Source of the DNA: a candidate division KSB3 bacterium
GTDB taxonomy: Bacteria; Moduliflexota; Moduliflexia; Moduliflexales; Moduliflexaceae
Reading direction: 5' to 3'
Assembly (NCBI GenBank): GCA_002748425.1
Contig: PDSJ01000019.1
Coordinates: 1 to 64,000, forward strand
Length of the DNA: 64,000 nt
Shown piece after piece: positions 40,632 through 56,778 of this stretch. The notes under the pieces are model-generated. The model had not been told where the DNA came from. It did not search any database and saw only the letters and a list, made by a program, of their open reading frames with translations. Made by a program: the position numbers and the translations under genes. The stretch's first letter is position 1; the number at the start of each line of letters is the position of its first letter.

Positions 40632-42740
40632 TTATCTGCCTGCTTCACGGGGAAGCACTGGAGAAAGCTTCGAAAAATCAATTGTCAGAAAATCATCTGC
40701 CAGCGTACTGAGGAAACGTTCGCTGATACGCGCAGCGATCTCACATTCTTCATCATCCGGATATGTCGTCTCAAGCTGAATGCGATGTTTCAGTCCTACA
40801 ATGTTATTGATCAGTGAGTTTGAGCCGGCGATCTCTTTGCCGGTCTCCTCCTCAATACTCTGGAGGGTCATGTGAAATGACGCAATTTTCGGGTTGCAGG
40901 ATTCATATTTTGACGCAACGGCTTTTAACGCGCTTTCGACAGCAGTGTAATACATGCTTACCGCCAGGATATTGTCACCGACCGTATGCTGGGCGCGGAA
41001 CTGCTCACCTCGGTGATAAAAGTATTTTGCGAGAACGAGCAGGCGGATCCATTCATCGGAAATGCTCTGGAATGCCTCCTCCTCAGCATGCTCCGAGACC
41101 TCAGGCTGAAATTCATCCTCAGGTCTCACGTCGTTTCCCGGAAATCCTTCCTCGGATAACTCTTCCAACTGCTGTTCAAAGGGCGTGACTGTGGAAATAT
41201 CTTCTCCGACCTGCATCTCGAAACGAACGCTGTCGGTAATTCTGAAGCCGTCATCCCCGTCACGTTCATCCAGTGCCCCAATGCCGGAGGCCAGATCGAA
41301 ATCGCTTTCACCGAAATTCAGGGAAGCAAGTTCATTGGAAGCGGACAGGTCAAAATTCTCATTGTCGAGCGTGAAGGATGCGAACTCGTCGTGTTCGCCA
41401 AGGCCGTCGCTCTCAGAGGCGTTCTCATCGTCATTGAGGTCATTCAGACTGAATGCCTGCAGTTCATCCTGATCGTCCTGGTCTTCTTCATTGCCAAAGG
41501 CAAGGTCTAATTCACTATCATCAATATCAAGAGTCTGGATGTCGCCTTTTGCAACGTTCTCTCCGTCTTCTGCCAGGGTGAGATCAGCAAACACAGACGC
41601 TTCGGAAACGTCTGCAGTTTCCAGCTCAAAGTTCAGGTCCACGTCGTTGTCTGTGCCGTCTTCATCCTGTGAGAATGAAAACATCTGCGCGTCATTCGAT
41701 ACCTGTTCTTCTTCGTTCAGGGAGAAATCAAGCAGATCACGACCGACTTCTGCGTGATCAGCACTGACTTCGATGTCGTCGTTCATGTCAAATGACAAAG
41801 CCGTCTCATCATCCGGAAATGCTGCTTCGGCATCAGGGACATCGGCCCCGTCAACAAAATCATTCAGGTCGCGCAGAGCCTGTTCTTCAATCTCTTTTAA
41901 ATTGAAAAATTCCGATTCTTGAAAGGTTCCGGTCTGCGCAATATCATCGTCATTAATTTCAAGTTCCTCAATAACGACACCTTCATCATAACCAATTGGC
42001 TTTGATTCAAGTAAGGAGTCAAGTTCATCTTCCGAGAAAGAGAGCTCGCCCCCCCCTGATGTCAGATCAATAAAGTCATCAGGGTCTTCGTCCATCATCC
42101 GTAAAAGTTCATCCTCCTCCTCATCATCGAGACTTTGTCCGCTTTCATCTGGTTTCAGACGCTGTTCCAAATCCTGAAGCGTGAACTTCGAGATCGCCTC
42201 AAGCGTTTCCATGACGCCGACCCCTTTAGTCGCAATGGTAGGAAAGTACGGGAGGTTTCTCGGGTTGAGATCGGCATTTAAATCCTCAATGGAGAGAATG
42301 TTATTCATGTCCCGCTTATTAAATTCATAGACCAGCGGAAGTTCTTCGAGAGAGCGGTTCTGTTCCTGAAGATTGTCCTGAAGGTTTTTGTAGCTTTGGA
42401 TGTTGGCCTCGCGCCGGCCCATCTGGGAGTCGGCGACGAATACGACCGCGTCAGCCCCTTGCAGCACCAATTTGCGGGTTTTGTTATATTTGACCTGACC
42501 TGGGACCGTATAGAGCTGAAACCGAAGCTTAAAGCCGCCGATCTCTCCGAGTTTTAATGGAAGCAGGTCAAAGAAAATCGTCCGATCCTTTTCAGTCGCC
42601 AGTGAAAGAAGCCGCCCTCGCTGAACTGGAGCAATGCGTTCGTGAATATATTGAAGCGAGGTGGTTTTCCCACACACTCCAGGACCATAATACACTATTT
42701 TCGCTGTAATTTCACGGTTTGCATAGTTAAAAAGTGCCAT
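40632..42740 (-). CDS. MglA-like small GTPase fused to acidic low-complexity linker and C-terminal helical (possibly HEPN-like) domain
   Basis: MALFNYANREITAKIVYYGPGVCGKTTSLQYIHERI (P-loop), TVPGQV, FNKRD; residues ~210-560 rich in D/E/S with F-[SD]-L motifs; C-terminal WIRLLVLAKYFYHRGEQFRAQ...AVSMYYTAVESALKAVASKYE. Confidence 0.8.
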   Translation of the reverse strand: MALFNYANREITAKIVYYGPGVCGKTTSLQYIHERIAPVQRGRLLSLATEKDRTIFFDLLPLKLGEIGGFKLRFQLYTVPGQVKYNKTRKLVLQGADAVVFVADSQMGRREANIQSYKNLQDNLQEQNRSLEELPLVYEFNKRDMNNILSIEDLNADLNPRNLPYFPTIATKGVGVMETLEAISKFTLQDLEQRLKPDESGQSLDDEEEDELLRMMDEDPDDFIDLTSGGGELSFSEDELDSLLESKPIGYDEGVVIEELEINDDDIAQTGTFQESEFFNLKEIEEQALRDLNDFVDGADVPDAEAAFPDDETALSFDMNDDIEVSADHAEVGRDLLDFSLNEEEQVSNDAQMFSFSQDEDGTDNDVDLNFELETADVSEASVFADLTLAEDGENVAKGDIQTLDIDDSELDLAFGNEEDQDDQDELQAFSLNDLNDDENASESDGLGEHDEFASFTLDNENFDLSASNELASLNFGESDFDLASGIGALDERDGDDGFRITDSVRFEMQVGEDISTVTPFEQQLEELSEEGFPGNDVRPEDEFQPEVSEHAEEEAFQSISDEWIRLLVLAKYFYHRGEQFRAQHTVGDNILAVSMYYTAVESALKAVASKYESCNPKIASFHMTLQSIEEETGKEIAGSNSLINNIVGLKHRIQLETTYPDDEECEIAARISERFLSTLADDFLTIDFSKLSPVLPREAGR

Positions 42741-42756
42741 AATTATTCCTCAACAT

Positions 42757-44745
42757 TTATTGAGCTTTTCCGCCGCAGTAAATACAGAATGTCTGATCAG
42801 CGGGAGTCCGGCGTCCACATTTTTTACAGGACAGTTCGGTATCGTGTGCTGCTTTCTGAAGTTTTCCACCACAGTAAGTGCAAAATTTTTCTGCGGCAGC
42901 TGTCTGACGCCCACAGAGCTTGCAGACAATCATTGTCTCCTCTTCTTCATCGTCGAATGCAGGCAAATCGCCGAGGGCAAAATCGCCCTCTTCAAGGTCT
43001 TCATCCATCAAAAACTGATTGTCAAGCTCTTCGCCGCCTGTCATAAAAGAATCGTCAGGGGACGGCCCGCGTGCGCTCTCATATTCATGAGCTGAGACCG
43101 TCTCAGCTGTCGGCTCAGAAAGGCTGCCTGCCGTTTCTTCAGCAAGCTCTTCAGTCCAGAAGCCTTCCTGGGCTGCTCCGGGCTCAGGGGCAAGACCGCT
43201 CTGTGCGTCTTCTGGCAGCGCTGCTTCAGAAGATGATTCATCAGCGCTGTCTCTGAGAGGGTTGAGGGATTTCTCAGCATCGAGAGAGGCCTGATAACGA
43301 TTGATAAAGGCGTTAATTTTTTCTGTTTTTTCGCTCCATAAGGCGATTTCCGAATTCTGAGAACGTTGTTTCTGGCTCAGCGTCGCTTCGTCATACTCCC
43401 CGACCAAATTTCGGACCTTAATTTCTTCCAGCTCTTCGTTTAAACGCTCGACCATCTCCACAATCTCTGCGCGTTTGTGGAGCATGTGCTCAAGATCGTC
43501 CTGGACATCAGTTAAAAGAGCGCTAAAGGCTTCTGAGTTGAAAATCACTGTTTTACGTGCGACGTATTCTTTCTGAAGTTTCTCATAGATGCGTTCGCTG
43601 ACCTCCCCACGATGCTCTTCGAGTCCGTTGAGATAGGCTTGAAGGGTTTCAGCTTCACGGATCTTTGCTTCGAATTCTCTAAGCTCTTTGTCGTTCAATC
43701 GTAAGTCTAACCCTAAAAAGTCCCGGACATCCATGCTCTCCTGAGAGGAGGCTTCTGCGGATTCAGCTTCTGCAGATCCCGGCAGTTCATCGTCGTGTGC
43801 ACCAAGCCTCTTTTGGAGAGTTTCCGGAGACAGCTCTTCTGCGACAACGGGTCCGCCAGCGTTTTGAACGGGAACGTCATTGCTCTCTTGTTCCAAATCG
43901 ATTGCGATATCTTCGAGGGAGGCCATCAGCTCTCCATCGTCGTCTTCAATATCAGGAGGAGATGGAATTTGTTCGACCGTCACGCCGTCCGGAGTGGCGT
44001 GGCGTTGCTCGCGGACAGCCACAGGCTGCTCTTGTGTGAGATACTCTTCGTCGCCCAGGTCGATGACTTCGTCATCTCCAACAGTGATAACGGCTTTTCC
44101 CGAGATCTGCTCTGCCCCGCTGACTGGGTCCTGATGGTCGTCAAGGCTGATATCCTGGCCTAAATCAGCAAAATCCTCGCTGATTTCAACTCCTTCTATC
44201 CCTAAATCAAGCTCTGAAAAATCGTCTTCATTATTGGAAAAGCTCCCGAGATCCAGGCCATCGTTTTCATCATCAGGATGATCATCTTTGTCGAAATTGA
44301 ACGTCAAGGTTGGAGCCGAAGACATGTCAAAATCCTCATCAGCGTCAAGATCCAGCTCGCTGTCTGAAAGTTCTTTATCAAGGTCGAGAACAAAAGAATC
44401 CTCTCCTGGAGCCGCTTGAATTTCTTTGACAAGATCGTCTTTCAGCGATCCATCCAGATCGAAGTTCGCTTCGTGGATCAGGTCTTGCTCCAGGTCCTCC
44501 CTCAGACTGTCATCAAAGCTGAAACTGCTTTCCACGTCTGGAGCTTCATCGCCAAAGCTCAGATCGTCATTATCTGAATTCAGATCGATACTCTCATGAA
44601 ACATGCTGGAACGATCCTGGCTGGATCGAGGCCGGGGACGATTCCGCTCTAATCTTTCGAAGGCGTTAAGGATTTCAGATTCCGGATCTTCTTCATTGGA
44701 AAAATGTATATCCTTTCGCTGAGTTTTCTTCTCATCATCTTTCAT
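42757..44745 (-). CDS. Acidic coiled-coil protein with two C-terminal zinc ribbons
   Basis: 662 aa; DLDLD-rich N-terminal half, heptad-like central region, CKLCGRQTAAAEKFCTYCGGK and CKKCGRRTPADQTFCIYCGGK. Confidence 0.75.
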   Translation of the reverse strand: MKDDEKKTQRKDIHFSNEEDPESEILNAFERLERNRPRPRSSQDRSSMFHESIDLNSDNDDLSFGDEAPDVESSFSFDDSLREDLEQDLIHEANFDLDGSLKDDLVKEIQAAPGEDSFVLDLDKELSDSELDLDADEDFDMSSAPTLTFNFDKDDHPDDENDGLDLGSFSNNEDDFSELDLGIEGVEISEDFADLGQDISLDDHQDPVSGAEQISGKAVITVGDDEVIDLGDEEYLTQEQPVAVREQRHATPDGVTVEQIPSPPDIEDDDGELMASLEDIAIDLEQESNDVPVQNAGGPVVAEELSPETLQKRLGAHDDELPGSAEAESAEASSQESMDVRDFLGLDLRLNDKELREFEAKIREAETLQAYLNGLEEHRGEVSERIYEKLQKEYVARKTVIFNSEAFSALLTDVQDDLEHMLHKRAEIVEMVERLNEELEEIKVRNLVGEYDEATLSQKQRSQNSEIALWSEKTEKINAFINRYQASLDAEKSLNPLRDSADESSSEAALPEDAQSGLAPEPGAAQEGFWTEELAEETAGSLSEPTAETVSAHEYESARGPSPDDSFMTGGEELDNQFLMDEDLEEGDFALGDLPAFDDEEEETMIVCKLCGRQTAAAEKFCTYCGGKLQKAAHDTELSCKKCGRRTPADQTFCIYCGGKAQ

Positions 44746-44810
44746 AATTTTTTCACTCCCACTGGATCGACGGATTTAAAGAGGGGGAATTTTTTATATG
44801 TTCTCTAAAA

Positions 44811-44839
44811 TTTATAGCAGTTCTTGTTTTTATTGTCAA
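44811..44839 (-). promoter_or_regulatory. Near-consensus sigma70 promoter for the acidic/GTPase operon
   Basis: Minus strand TTGACA-N17-TATAAA. Confidence 0.7.
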
Positions 44840-47386: not shown

Positions 47387-50062
47387 CTATCTATAGTCCT
47401 GACGCAGTTGTTCTATCCGGCGCAGCATGTCCTGCACGGGCGCATGAAGCTCTGGCGGGCACTTGTGATAGTTGACGTCCCCGAGCAGCGAAAGCAGCGC
47501 GTAGTATAAAGGCTGATAACGTTCATGCAGCTTCAGACCAGGGGTCTCGAAATAGTCAACAAGCTGCTGCTCGCCGTGTTTTGCACATAATAACATCAAA
47601 TACAACAAAATGTCCTCTTCCAGGTCCTGATAGGCTTCCTGTGAGTACATGAATTCCCCGGCCGTCTGAATCGCATCCTCGATGAGATTATTCCAGAGAA
47701 AGATGCAGGCCGCAGTGTGGGCGGTATAGATATTCTTTTCAAGGCCGATGACATGCCGGCTAAACGCCAGGGCCTGCTCTTTCTGACGCTTCTGCTCGAA
47801 ATATAGCCAGGCCAGACCGTTCATGGCGTTCATCTCACCGCGTTCAGCCGCCATGCGATAATATGTTTCCGCACGATCGACCTTTTTCAGAACCTCATGA
47901 TACAGAAGCGCCAGCTTGACCATCGCTGTCACGTTTCCGTGCTGGATCGCCCTGAGGTATGCGTTCTCTGCTTTCGGATAGTCGTGATCGCGATAATTGT
48001 ACAGATCTGCTAGGGTCAGTGCAGCTTTGGCATGACCGCTTTCAGCGGCCTTCTGATAATAGCGTTCAGCCTCGGCAGCTCTGTTCGAGTCGCGACTGTA
48101 TAACGCCGCGAGCTGAAACAGAGCTTCGGCGGCAGTCTGGGCGAGCAGCTTCACGTAATTTTCCTTAACCCCCGGAAAATCCTGACGCTGATAACAGTCA
48201 GACTCTTCTGCTGTCCCTTTGATGGCTGTTATCAGGTAATTCTTCAAGCCTTTGAGAGAAATTCCTCTGGCCTTGAGCAGGTTTGAGCGGTCCTGGCTTT
48301 CTTTGACTGCCTGGAGATAGTGTTGTTCCGCAGCCTCCGGCTTATGCATGCTGTAATGATAGAGGTTTCCGAGATAGAGCATGGCGTCTGTTCGTCCATG
48401 CTCGATGGCGCGCTGATAACAGGTCTCAGCCTCGTCAACATTTTGAAACTGATGATGATAGATCTGTCCCAGAGAAATCAGCGCATCAGGATGTCCCTGT
48501 TCGGCAGCTATGCTGAAGGCCTTGACAGCCCTGGAATAATCGCCGATCCGGCTGGAGGCGTAGCCGATCCGGAAATTGAGGTGCTGTGTCTTCTGCCTGA
48601 TCTGTGAAAATGCATTCAGCGCGTCTTCATACGCTTCCTGCTGATAGGCCCTTTCGCCTTTGGAAAACAGGTCCCGGTCCGAAGGCGAGAGGGCAGCAGC
48701 CAGGTCAGCAGCATTCTCTTTGAGCAGAGTTCTGGCTGTGTGAATCATGCGGTGCTCGGTGTCCTGGTCTAATTGAGCCGATTGCGTAAACGCTTCAGTC
48801 AGGTAGTACGCTGCTCTGGAATGATAGCGGCCCTGAGATAAGGCCTGGAGATGGCGTCCGGCGTGCTGTTGAAGTTCGCTGGCGCTATACCAGTTTTCAA
48901 GGAAATGAACCAGCCAGACCACCCGTGAGGGCGCATTGCCGGGGCTGAGACGCATTAAGTACCAGATATTGAAAAAACGTTCTTTTAGACGATACAACGG
49001 CGCTGCAGCCTCAGAAGCGATGGCTTCAATGATAAATACATTTTTCAGATCCTCTAAAACCCTGGCAGTCTTGTTCAGGTCGAAACGAGCGCTCTGCGCG
49101 ATCTCTTCGAGCGTCATCGCTTCCCATTGCAAGGCCAGCGTATTGACAACCGTGCGCTGCAACGGCTTCAGATCGTCCATACGGCTTTTATAGAGCGGAG
49201 TGAGCCGATCCAGGACCATGTCCAGATCATCGAGGGTCCTGCCGTCTTCCCGATCGCAAAAGACCTCAAAGAGCAGGACCATGGTTCTGATGACCCCGCC
49301 GGTGAGAATCCGAAGACTTTCGATGCGGCCCGGCTGCTGTGAGACAATGCGCCGGATGCGTTCTTCCTGCTTGCTGGCCCGTCCCAGCTGCAAGAGCAGA
49401 GCCTCGGTCTCCTTTGGGCCTAAGCCTTGCAGATGGATGACTTCGAAGAGCGCCAAGACAGAGGCGGAGATGTCCTCACAGGCCCGCAGAGCCGTGGCTG
49501 TGGCCCCGACAAGAATCAGATAGGGGCTTCTTTGCAGCAGATTACCAAGGCGCTTCTGGTCCTCGGGCGTAAAATTACGCAGCAGTTCCCCAAGATTGTC
49601 CACAAACAGCAGCAGACGTTTTCCCTGGCGCCGCAAGGCATTTCGAAGGAGCTCAAAACAGCGGCGTTCATAGTCGCTGTCCTCGTGAGAGACAGCAGCC
49701 ATTTGCCCGGAAAGCCTGGCAAAGCCCTGATCTTTTCCCGCAAGCTCGCAGGCAATGCTCTCCCAGAGCTGGACAAGCTGCTGGATAGCATAATAGGCTT
49801 CTTCCTTGAGCGCGATCGGCAGCAGAGTGTGCTGACCGGCATTGCGCTCGATTTCATAACAGAGACGCAGCAAGATCGTGGTCTTGCCCATTCCCCGCTG
49901 CCCTTCGATCAGATAGTGCTGAAGCGGAGCCTTGTCCGGCGACTGCTGCAGGCGCTGGGAGAGCTCCTCGAACAGGTTTTGCCGCACGGCAAAGTGTTCG
50001 ATTAATTCTTCCTTGCTCTGCTCGTGGGGATTATATATGCTCGTGCTTAAACGTGTCTGCAT
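47387..50062 (-). CDS. P-loop ATPase with Sel1/TPR repeats (STAND-like)
   Basis: 891 aa; YLIEGQRGMGKTTILLRLCYEI (Walker A), KRLLLFVDNLGELL (Walker B), winged-helix-like region, multiple ALISLGQIYHHQFQNVDEAETCYQRAIEHG-type Sel1 repeats. Confidence 0.85.
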   Translation of the reverse strand: MQTRLSTSIYNPHEQSKEELIEHFAVRQNLFEELSQRLQQSPDKAPLQHYLIEGQRGMGKTTILLRLCYEIERNAGQHTLLPIALKEEAYYAIQQLVQLWESIACELAGKDQGFARLSGQMAAVSHEDSDYERRCFELLRNALRRQGKRLLLFVDNLGELLRNFTPEDQKRLGNLLQRSPYLILVGATATALRACEDISASVLALFEVIHLQGLGPKETEALLLQLGRASKQEERIRRIVSQQPGRIESLRILTGGVIRTMVLLFEVFCDREDGRTLDDLDMVLDRLTPLYKSRMDDLKPLQRTVVNTLALQWEAMTLEEIAQSARFDLNKTARVLEDLKNVFIIEAIASEAAAPLYRLKERFFNIWYLMRLSPGNAPSRVVWLVHFLENWYSASELQQHAGRHLQALSQGRYHSRAAYYLTEAFTQSAQLDQDTEHRMIHTARTLLKENAADLAAALSPSDRDLFSKGERAYQQEAYEDALNAFSQIRQKTQHLNFRIGYASSRIGDYSRAVKAFSIAAEQGHPDALISLGQIYHHQFQNVDEAETCYQRAIEHGRTDAMLYLGNLYHYSMHKPEAAEQHYLQAVKESQDRSNLLKARGISLKGLKNYLITAIKGTAEESDCYQRQDFPGVKENYVKLLAQTAAEALFQLAALYSRDSNRAAEAERYYQKAAESGHAKAALTLADLYNYRDHDYPKAENAYLRAIQHGNVTAMVKLALLYHEVLKKVDRAETYYRMAAERGEMNAMNGLAWLYFEQKRQKEQALAFSRHVIGLEKNIYTAHTAACIFLWNNLIEDAIQTAGEFMYSQEAYQDLEEDILLYLMLLCAKHGEQQLVDYFETPGLKLHERYQPLYYALLSLLGDVNYHKCPPELHAPVQDMLRRIEQLRQDYR

Positions 50063-53592: not shown

Positions 53593-56500
53593 ATGACAGC
53601 AAAAGAGCTGCTGCAACGCATTGAAGAAGCTGCTGCCAATGGCAGGATTTACCTCGATCTCTCTGGAAAACAGCTGACTGAATTGCCGCCGGAGATTGCC
53701 AACCTGAGCACCTTGGAGCGCTTAGACCTCAGAGAGAACCAGTTGACTGCGCTGCCGCCAGAGTTCGGTCAACTGAGCGCCTTGCAGGTCTTAGATCTCA
53801 GACAGAATCAGTTGACTGCGCTGCCGCCAGAGTTCGGTCAACTGAGCGCCTTGCAGGTCTTAGATCTCAGACAGAATCAGTTGACTGCGCTGCCCCCGGA
53901 GCTCGGGCAGCTGCGCGCCTTGAAGAAATTAAGCCTCTGGGGGAATCAGCTGACTGCGCTGCCCCCGGAATTCGGGCAGTTGCGCGCCTTGCAGTATTTA
54001 TTACTCAGCCAGAATCAGCTGACTGCGCTGCCGCAGGAGTTCGGGCAGTTGCGTGCCTTGCAGCACTTAGAGCTCATCCAGAATCAGTTGACTGCGCTGC
54101 CGCCGGAGCTCGGGCAGCTGCGCGCCTTGCAGTATTTAAACCTCAGACAGAATCAGCTGACTGCGCTGCCCCCGGAGCTCGGGCAGCTGCGCGCCTTGAA
54201 GAAATTAAGCCTCTGGGGGAATCAGCTGACTGCGCTGCCGCCGGAGTTCGGGCAGTTGCGCGCCTTGCAGCACTTAGACCTCAGCCAGAACCAGCTGATT
54301 GCGCTGCCGCCAGAGTTCGGTCAACTGAGTGCTTTGCAGGACTTATACCTCGGTGGGAATCGGCTGACTGCGCTGCCCCCTGAGTTCGGGCGGTTGCGCG
54401 CCTTGGAGCTCTTAGACCTCAGCCAGAATCAGTTGACTGCGCTGCCGCCGGACCTCGGCCAGTTGCGCCCCTTGCTGGACTTAGACCTCAGTAAGAATCA
54501 GTTGACTGGGCTGCCCCTGGACCTCGGCCGCCTGCATCAGCTTTGGCGCTTGGGCCTTGCTGGAAATCCCCTTGCTTGTCCGCCTCCTGAAATTCTTCAG
54601 CAGGGCTGTCAGGGGATTCTGGCTTTTCTGCAGGAATTGCAGGATGGCAGCAGCCAGCAGTGGCGTTCCAAGCTGATCCTGGTTGGCGAAGGCGGGGTTG
54701 GGAAAACATCCCTGCTGCGAGCCTTAAAGCACGAGCCTTTTGTGGAAGGGCTGGACACAACCCACGGGATTCAGACCAGCATGCTGAACGTGCCGCATCC
54801 TGAGAACGACGCTGTCAGCATGCACTTACAGAGCTGGGATTTTGGCGGACAGGAGATTTACCATGCAACCCATCAGTTCTTTCTGACCGATCGCTCGCTT
54901 TTCGTGCTGGTCTGGAATGCCAGGCATGGCTATGAACAGGGCAAAATCTATTACTGGCTCGATCAGATTCAGGCCCGCGCTCCGCAGTCGCCGGTCTTGA
55001 TTGCAGCGACTCATCTTGATCAACGCCCTGCCGATCTGCCCAAAGATGAATTACGAGCCAAATATCCTCAGATCGTTGCTTTTTACAGTGTCAGCAGCAA
55101 AAAGCACTGCGGGATTGAAGAGATTCGCAAGGCGATTGCCCTTGAAGCAGCGCGCTTGCCGCTGATGGGGCAGAAGTGGCCCTCCAACTGGCTCAAGGCC
55201 GCAGAGGATATTCGGGCAAGTGCCAAAAAGCACATCCGGCCCAGGCAGCTCTATGAGATGATGAAAGCCCGGCATGTCTCCGCGTACAAGGTCCTGGCCC
55301 GCTGGCTGCACGAATTGGGAGATATTCTCTATTTTGACGACGATGAGGACCTTCAGAATCTTGTGATTCTTGCTCCGCAGTGGGTGACGGAATATATCAG
55401 CAAGGTTCTGGAAAGCGAGGACGTCAGCGCACAAAACGGCATTTTTACCCGTGAACACGAACAGCAGCTCTGGAGCGATATTGCCCCGGAAATGCAGGAT
55501 CATTTTCTGCGCCTGATGGAAAAATTCGATCTGTCCTATCGCACACTGGAGAACCGCGACATCAGTCTGGTGGTCGAACGCCTTGCTCTGGACCCGCCTG
55601 ACTACGCAGAGCGCTGGGACAGCCTCAAATCCTGCGAGCCGTTTTCGGAAATGACTCTGATCTACCGGCTCAGCACCCTGCCGGCCGGCATCCCGACCTG
55701 GTTCATTGCCCGCACGCATCGTTTCACAACGCACACGCACTGGCGCAGCGGCGCGATCTTTGGCGACGATCGCGAGCAGCCGAAACATTTGGCCCTGCTG
55801 CGCGCTTTTGCCCATGATCGCTGCCTGAGCTTGACAGTGCGCGGTCCCAGCCCGCACAATTTTTTTACGCTGCTCAAAGACGGAATCGAGGAGACCCTGA
55901 AGCGTTACCCGGGCCTGGAGATCAAGCGTTTTATGCCCTGTCCCGGGCACAACGGCCAAGCCTGCAAGCAGGAATTCAACTATGCCCAGCTTCAGAAGGC
56001 TCTTGAACAGAGACCGCCTGTCACGATGATGCAGTGTTCGGAAACATTCGAAATGGTGTCTGTGCCGGGTCTGCTTTTTGGCGTGGACTGGAATACGCAG
56101 GACGCCGTGTTGAAGCGGCTCAGCACGCTGGAAGCTACGATGACCGAAGAGCATGCCAGGCAGTCCGAAGAGCTGCGCAATTTACGCGAACTCACGCAGC
56201 GGCAGTTTCTCAACAGCTTTCGGCAGCTGCAGTCAGACATTGATTCGGCATGCCCGAACGTCTTTGTGCTGCGTCCCTGCAACTCTTCAGGCTGGCAAAA
56301 GACCGTGTTGGGCCAACGCTTCTGGCTGCAGCTCTACTGCCAGCAGCCCGGGTCCTGGCATCCGACCGAAGAAGGCGGCTGCTACGAGATCAGGCTCTCC
56401 GCTGAATGGATCAACGCTCTTGGGCCCTACCTGCGGAACGTGGTACAGGTTTTGAAATTTATCAGTCCTCTTGTTGGACCATGGATGTCCATGTCTGCCC

Positions 56501-56778
56501 CGGACTATAAAGCGCTCCTGAAAGAGGATGTGAGCATGATGACAGCCTTAGTCAAAACACTGCCGGACCTCGGCAGCGAGTCAGACCCTGACCTGAGCGA
56601 TCTTCCGAGAGCTGAGCGCAGCCCGGAACGCGCTGCTGGCGCAGCACTGCGGGCCTTGCGCCAGCTTTTGGAAGAAAAGGATCCGCAGCAGCACTGGGGC
56701 GGCCTGAAAAAAGTGCTTACCCCTGAAGGGCATTATCTCTGGCTGTGCAGACATCATGCTCAGGACTATGCGCGCTAG
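53593..56778 (+). CDS. LRR-Roc-COR (ROCO family) GTPase
   Basis: 1061 aa; 13 LRRs, then KLILVGEGGVGKTSLLRAL, WDFGGQEIYHATHQFFL, ATHLDQ, COR-like region and unknown C-terminal domain. Confidence 0.92.
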   Translation: MTAKELLQRIEEAAANGRIYLDLSGKQLTELPPEIANLSTLERLDLRENQLTALPPEFGQLSALQVLDLRQNQLTALPPEFGQLSALQVLDLRQNQLTALPPELGQLRALKKLSLWGNQLTALPPEFGQLRALQYLLLSQNQLTALPQEFGQLRALQHLELIQNQLTALPPELGQLRALQYLNLRQNQLTALPPELGQLRALKKLSLWGNQLTALPPEFGQLRALQHLDLSQNQLIALPPEFGQLSALQDLYLGGNRLTALPPEFGRLRALELLDLSQNQLTALPPDLGQLRPLLDLDLSKNQLTGLPLDLGRLHQLWRLGLAGNPLACPPPEILQQGCQGILAFLQELQDGSSQQWRSKLILVGEGGVGKTSLLRALKHEPFVEGLDTTHGIQTSMLNVPHPENDAVSMHLQSWDFGGQEIYHATHQFFLTDRSLFVLVWNARHGYEQGKIYYWLDQIQARAPQSPVLIAATHLDQRPADLPKDELRAKYPQIVAFYSVSSKKHCGIEEIRKAIALEAARLPLMGQKWPSNWLKAAEDIRASAKKHIRPRQLYEMMKARHVSAYKVLARWLHELGDILYFDDDEDLQNLVILAPQWVTEYISKVLESEDVSAQNGIFTREHEQQLWSDIAPEMQDHFLRLMEKFDLSYRTLENRDISLVVERLALDPPDYAERWDSLKSCEPFSEMTLIYRLSTLPAGIPTWFIARTHRFTTHTHWRSGAIFGDDREQPKHLALLRAFAHDRCLSLTVRGPSPHNFFTLLKDGIEETLKRYPGLEIKRFMPCPGHNGQACKQEFNYAQLQKALEQRPPVTMMQCSETFEMVSVPGLLFGVDWNTQDAVLKRLSTLEATMTEEHARQSEELRNLRELTQRQFLNSFRQLQSDIDSACPNVFVLRPCNSSGWQKTVLGQRFWLQLYCQQPGSWHPTEEGGCYEIRLSAEWINALGPYLRNVVQVLKFISPLVGPWMSMSAPDYKALLKEDVSMMTALVKTLPDLGSESDPDLSDLPRAERSPERAAGAALRALRQLLEEKDPQQHWGGLKKVLTPEGHYLWLCRHHAQDYAR
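53692..54588 (+). repeat. Tandem 69-bp (23-aa) LRR-encoding repeats, about 13 copies
   Basis: Copies 53761-53829 and 53830-53898 almost identical; 53899 and 54175 copies (276 bp apart = 4 x 69) almost identical. Confidence 0.9.

Follow-up and report, generated by a model that had tools for sequence, protein, structure and literature searches.

What does an MglA-type GTPase do when it carries a long acidic tail and is encoded next to a coiled-coil protein ending in zinc ribbons? The question is raised by two adjacent genes in a 64,000-nucleotide stretch of DNA from a candidate division KSB3 bacterium (hereafter the window, to which all window coordinates refer). In bacteria, GTPases of the MglA type govern polarity and motility (PMC4316618), and filaments of KSB3, now Candidatus Moduliflexota, glide without flagella in sugar gradients; their set of pilus genes is incomplete, and the paper describing them, in which MglA goes unmentioned, states that how they glide has yet to be established (PMC4312070). 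The GTPase, of 702 amino acids (aa), and its 662-aa neighbour, here called the partner, are a variant of the MglA GTPase systems. That the two function together is well supported, and we put the probability that they are a dedicated pair of GTPase and effector or scaffold, serving polarity or surface motility, at roughly 45%.

The evidence for joint function lies in the arrangement of the genes across the phylum. Our sample comprised four genomes from two families, two of the four belonging to one genus, and hence represents three lineages; the window genome is 94% complete, and its closest named relative is the bacterium UASB270, which we take to be Candidatus Vecturithrix granuli, of a genus that NCBI places in Candidatus Moduliflexota. 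The order is constant: in each of the four genomes the GTPase gene comes immediately after the partner gene. In the first family the pair is flanked by a gene for a Ser/Thr kinase-FHA-GAF-cyclase protein upstream and by dnaJ downstream; in the second, def lies downstream, and both flanks differ between the two families. As the pair persists while its flanks change, the linkage is probably under selection, and we regard this retention as the best evidence for joint function. An earlier note on this DNA, made from the letters alone, had proposed that the two act as a pair departing from the known MglAB architecture, and the proposal survives the co-occurrence test which that note itself suggested. 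The ground it gave for the pairing, the matched acidic tracts of the two proteins, is weak: GTPase and partner are indeed the most acidic proteins in the window (reaching 0.35 and 0.34 net acid per 100 aa, with the next protein at 0.24), but such tracts diverge fast, and what is conserved is the folded domains together with a few islands in the linker.

By its motifs, the 702-aa protein is a Group 1 MglA with intact GTPase motifs. Residues 1-192 match the solved MglA of Myxococcus xanthus (6hjh) with an E-value (E) of 1e-68 and over the whole domain, which bears out the complete G domain that had been read from the sequence. The marks of Group 1, as defined in PMC4316618, are all present: the G1-G4 motifs, TVPGQ in G3 and NKxD (here NKRD) in G4. 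An intrinsic arginine finger adjoins the G2 threonine (D52-R53-T54, numbered as in PMC11016934); in MglA, Arg53 is the catalytic residue, and Thr54 completes the coordination of Mg (PMC11016934). The linker that follows is strongly acidic (33% D+E and 3% K+R over residues 194-555) and contains eight F-[SDNT]-[LFM] motifs, compared with 1.5 in shuffled sequences (0 of 2000 shuffles reached as many), so that composition and shuffle test both uphold the earlier description of an acidic linker with recurring F-x-L motifs. It is divergent between relatives apart from two islands.

Conservation resumes in the C-terminal 150 residues, which, judging from profile scores and an alignment, are on balance a HEPN-like, non-catalytic domain. 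The Pfam HEPN model (PF05168) scores 22.6 bits on the isolated window domain, against a cut-off of 22, falls below that cut-off on two orthologues (15.6 and 16.0 bits), and has no match in the UASB270 orthologue; the alignment shows that the catalytic motif R-x4-6-H, by whose absence the domain differs from HEPN proper, is not conserved in any of the four MglA-fused copies. Such a pattern, in which a single sequence narrowly passes the cut-off while the rest score lower or not at all, would also be expected of a lineage-specific helical bundle that resembles HEPN by chance, a lesser though real possibility. A profile search of the domain against PDB returned no matches, and the AlphaFold2 (AF2) model, built from two sequences, is unreliable, with a predicted local distance difference test score (pLDDT) of 50 and no meaningful fold match. 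Because of this score the fold matches were not used, and the HEPN structure 4nqf, which appeared at rank 17, was disregarded. Speaking for HEPN rather than chance, three of the four orthologues match the same family, and a distant unfused relative found with the domain profile keeps R-x4-H and weakly resembles the HEPN-bearing Csx1. Many RNase toxins contain HEPN domains, and this relative, with its retained motif and weak Csx1 match, could hint that the tail serves a defence or toxin system as its RNase effector, with the GTPase as the gate. We judge such a role highly improbable: the motif is missing from the four fused copies, PADLOC assigned neither window protein to a defence family, and the GTPase gene occurs in every genome of the phylum that was examined, unlike patchy defence genes. 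A profile search of 385 genomes found the HEPN-like domain fused to MglA in this phylum only, and our literature search found no report of an MglA with HEPN.

The partner is built from an acidic N-terminal arm, a helical coiled-coil domain and C-terminal zinc ribbons. The helical domain, residues 338-503, is predicted confidently (AF2 pLDDT 92.6), and this coiled-coil domain alone suggests a scaffold role. Residues 608-658 match the double zinc ribbon family DZR (PF12773, E 5.6e-8), and a search of PDB with the zinc ribbons returned weak generic ribbons only. Two features that the earlier note had seen in the partner hold for the window protein and not for its relatives: the second of the two ribbons is unique to the window genome, with one ribbon in the three others, and the matching F-x-L style, enriched in its first 330 residues (four F-[SDNT]-[LFM] motifs versus 0.7 in shuffles, p about 0.006), is absent by eye from the second-family orthologues. 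Comparison with Pfam and NCBIfam gave the zinc ribbons only, and nothing in the partner resembled roadblock, RomR, RomX or RomY; it is not a roadblock (MglB) protein, nor is it assigned to a known family of MglA regulators.

It is nevertheless conceivable that the partner replaces MglB as a GTPase-activating protein or guanine nucleotide exchange factor, instead of acting downstream as an effector. A gene that stays beside an MglA gene usually encodes its regulator, as 404 of the 488 sequences in the MglA-clade survey are coupled to MglB (PMC4316618). No roadblock gene lies within four genes of the pair in the four genomes, those of the phylum being on other contigs or beside canonical MglA, and the window genome has a single orphan roadblock gene, beside a response regulator. 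The claim that no MglB partner is visible therefore stands for the locus and has to be qualified for the genomes, in view of this orphan and of a separate roadblock-MglA operon in the relatives. We consider a regulatory partner distinctly unlikely: besides the missing resemblance to known regulators, MglA has its own catalytic Arg53, so that a regulator would need only to reorient loops, and the features of the partner give no sign of its doing so. In the stretch that holds the orphan roadblock gene (L046:6873-14464), the gene ahead of it encodes a response regulator with a DUF4388-like segment, and after it come genes for long coiled-coil proteins with tetratricopeptide repeats (TPR), one of which has an acidic linker.

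The tailed MglAs of the phylum are a lineage-specific radiation apart from the canonical MglB-MglA operon. In our tree the HEPN-fused, cyclic-nucleotide (cNMP)-binding-fused and short-tailed proteins form one clade (support 95/86), within which the first two group together (96/94); the relatives' canonical MglA, of 194 aa, falls elsewhere and is located behind a roadblock gene. The window genome has, as far as found, only the HEPN-fused and a short-tailed MglA. In three loci (L163:5065-6700, L166:4970-6460 and L168:4354-5845) the canonical MglA lies between the roadblock gene and a second small gene, whose product of 126-128 aa has no Pfam match and may be another roadblock protein. The cNMP-binding fusion (L047:7278-8654, L048:7422-8666 and L049:7659-8903; cNMP_binding E 8e-22 in L049), not found in the window genome, has ahead of it a small gene, about 100 aa long, that is conserved. 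In other phyla MglAs commonly have tails of other kinds, among them cNMP-binding, SurA-like and coiled-coil modules. A C-terminal SurA-like domain is present in L095:5839-7188 and L097:5248-6465 (SurA_N_3 E 2.4e-12 in L097), with small genes on both sides that look roadblock-like by eye, and L082:3639-6139 holds tandem MglA genes, one short (202 aa) and one long-tailed (538 aa). Such proteins have been little studied, since the main survey was restricted to those up to 240 aa (PMC4316618). Its Table 1 lists 449 of the 488 sequences as under 240 aa, and of the 404 coupled to MglB, 390 are small; by subtraction, 39 members, set aside there, are long, and only 14 of them are coupled.

The helical domain of the partner belongs to an unnamed family that is spread over many bacterial families, has the signatures [IV][YF]-x-K...[ED]Y and R-x-x-x-GE, and mostly ends in zinc ribbons or an FHA domain. 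Taking E below 1e-10 as a strong match, and matches between 1e-7 and 1e-3 as coiled-coil noise, we found it in 22 of the 385 genomes. All 18 domain-bearing genomes outside the phylum carry MglA, against a background of 143/381 (hypergeometric 1e-8, or about 1e-6 when counted by 14 families). In one other phylum both are core genes, the domain occurring in 44 and MglA in 42 of 46 genomes, and a test of co-occurrence within it is uninformative because both are nearly universal there. The top Foldseek match of the helical domain is a CdvA-like coiled coil (PF18822; 9s9g), to which several family members also have weak profile matches. All of these lie below curated or significance thresholds (20.8-20.9 bits for the members shown, against a PF18822 cut-off of 30, with none listed for the window domain), and coiled coils attract such matches; we thus treat the resemblance to CdvA as weak and as a lead only. 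One might go further and suppose that the partner polymerises through its coiled coil into a scaffold gated by the GTPase, and that the zinc-ribbon/FHA coiled-coil family is a general class of MglA partners across phyla, with this operon representing the form in which the GTPase is a fusion. This is quite unlikely in our estimate; if true, the family would be an unrecognised class of MglA partners, and as a candidate for such a class it is testable in cultured species.

Based on these observations, we suggest that the MglA domain would act, as in the other MglAs of Group 1, as a GTP switch, the acidic linker as a flexible tether bearing a few docking motifs, and the non-catalytic HEPN-like C-terminus as a module binding protein or ligand. 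The coiled-coil/zinc-ribbon neighbour would be the cognate scaffold or effector, self-associating through its helical domain and engaging the GTPase through this domain or a zinc ribbon, and the pair may position or recruit the machinery by which these gliding filaments move over surfaces, be it that of type IV pili or of gliding. PilT-family genes are abundant in all four genomes of the phylum. A polarity role of the pair is plausible; direct binding of GTPase and partner, self-association and a function in motility are what we infer. Several observations weigh against this proposal. The locus is without any known motility gene, no family copy examined outside Moduliflexota adjoins mglA, and several such copies lie between holA and leuS. 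Shared ancestry may inflate the co-occurrence of domain and MglA, and within the 46-genome phylum the domain occurs in four genomes where no MglA was detected and MglA in two where the domain was not, several of these genomes being incomplete. In unrelated families (L118, L121, L129, L115, L122, L124) the coiled-coil/zinc-ribbon gene adjoins a holA-like gene, in several with leuS on the opposite side.

Gene surroundings could instead point to a signalling relay apart from motility, in which the tailed MglA and an adaptor pass kinase or nucleotide signals to housekeeping functions such as protein folding or translation. The pair adjoins the kinase-FHA-GAF-cyclase gene and dnaJ in the first family and def in the second; relatives of the partner carry FHA domains, and the genes of such relatives are often located between holA and leuS. 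We find a relay somewhat unlikely all the same: the kinase, dnaJ and def neighbours are not common to both families and so do not belong to a fixed unit, and MglA proteins of known role act in polarity and motility (PMC4316618).

Both genes are on the minus strand in head-to-tail orientation, the partner gene first, and their open reading frames and spacing of 16 base pairs (bp) were verified. The single promoter that the earlier note had placed ahead of both genes can be read directly as a sigma-70-type promoter-like sequence, with TG one base ahead of its -10 element; a generic promoter scan did not flag it, as the scan demands T at the last -10 position and the sequence here is TATAAA. Elsewhere in the window, 10 kb from the pair, a 1061-aa ROCO protein (53593-56778, plus strand), with leucine-rich repeats, a Roc GTPase and COR-A/COR-B domains, represents a second kind of Ras-like GTPase, and an 891-aa AAA/STAND-type NTPase with TPR/Sel1 repeats is encoded at 47387-50062 (minus strand).

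Table 1. Features of the GTPase-partner locus in window coordinates.
Feature	Position	Strand	Basis or remark
MglA-type GTPase gene, 702 aa	40632..42740	-	Orthologues in 4/4 phylum genomes
Predicted C-terminal helical HEPN-like domain, residues 553-702, catalytic R-x4-6-H absent	40635..41084	-	Pfam HEPN score, alignment, profile
Acidic low-complexity linker, about residues 193-560	41061..42164	-	Composition, motif counts, divergence
Linker island 2, residues 276-295 (S.FF.LK..E.QA.R.L..F)	41856..41915	-	Identical positions in three lineages
Linker island 1, residues 222-261 (D..DLT, FS...L, PIGY, EE.E)	41958..42077	-	Identical positions in three lineages
MglA G domain, residues 1-192 (GPGVCGKTT, Arg53-Thr54, TVPGQ, NKRD)	42165..42740	-	6hjh match, motifs
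Intergenic gap, 16 bp, with AGGA ribosome-binding-like site for the GTPase gene	42741..42756	.	Sequence reading
Partner gene, 662 aa: acidic N-terminal arm, helical coiled-coil domain, C-terminal zinc ribbons	42757..44745	-	Orthologue at same position in 4/4 phylum genomes
Two zinc ribbons, about residues 608-660	42766..42924	-	First ribbon alone kept in relatives
Helical (coiled-coil hairpin) domain, residues 338-503	43237..43734	-	AF2 pLDDT, profile family
Acidic N-terminal arm, residues 1-337	43735..44745	-	Poorly conserved save short ED..IL.A motif near residues 19-28
Promoter-like sequence, sigma-70 type, TTGACA-N17-TATAAA	44811..44839	-	Direct reading; consensus match only

The partner can be likened, by description only, to GltJ of M. 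xanthus, in which a zinc ribbon on the cytoplasmic side takes part in binding MglA. GltJ is listed as an MglA effector (PMC12288465) and, unlike the partner, is part of the gliding machinery; a literature search found nothing on MglA with zinc ribbon and gliding. With the Group 1 MglAs of M. xanthus and Thermus thermophilus the window GTPase shares the G domain, Arg53, Thr54, TVPGQ and NKRD, and it differs from them in its long acidic tail with a HEPN-like end, in having no MglB neighbour, and in belonging to a clade separate from the roadblock-coupled MglA of the phylum. It shares with other long MglA-clade proteins (over 240 aa) a common plan of MglA domain, low-complexity linker and extra C-terminal module, although the tails differ. 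What the locus adds to these systems is a tailed MglA fusion that has a constant partner gene beside it, in a phylum of gliding filamentous bacteria.

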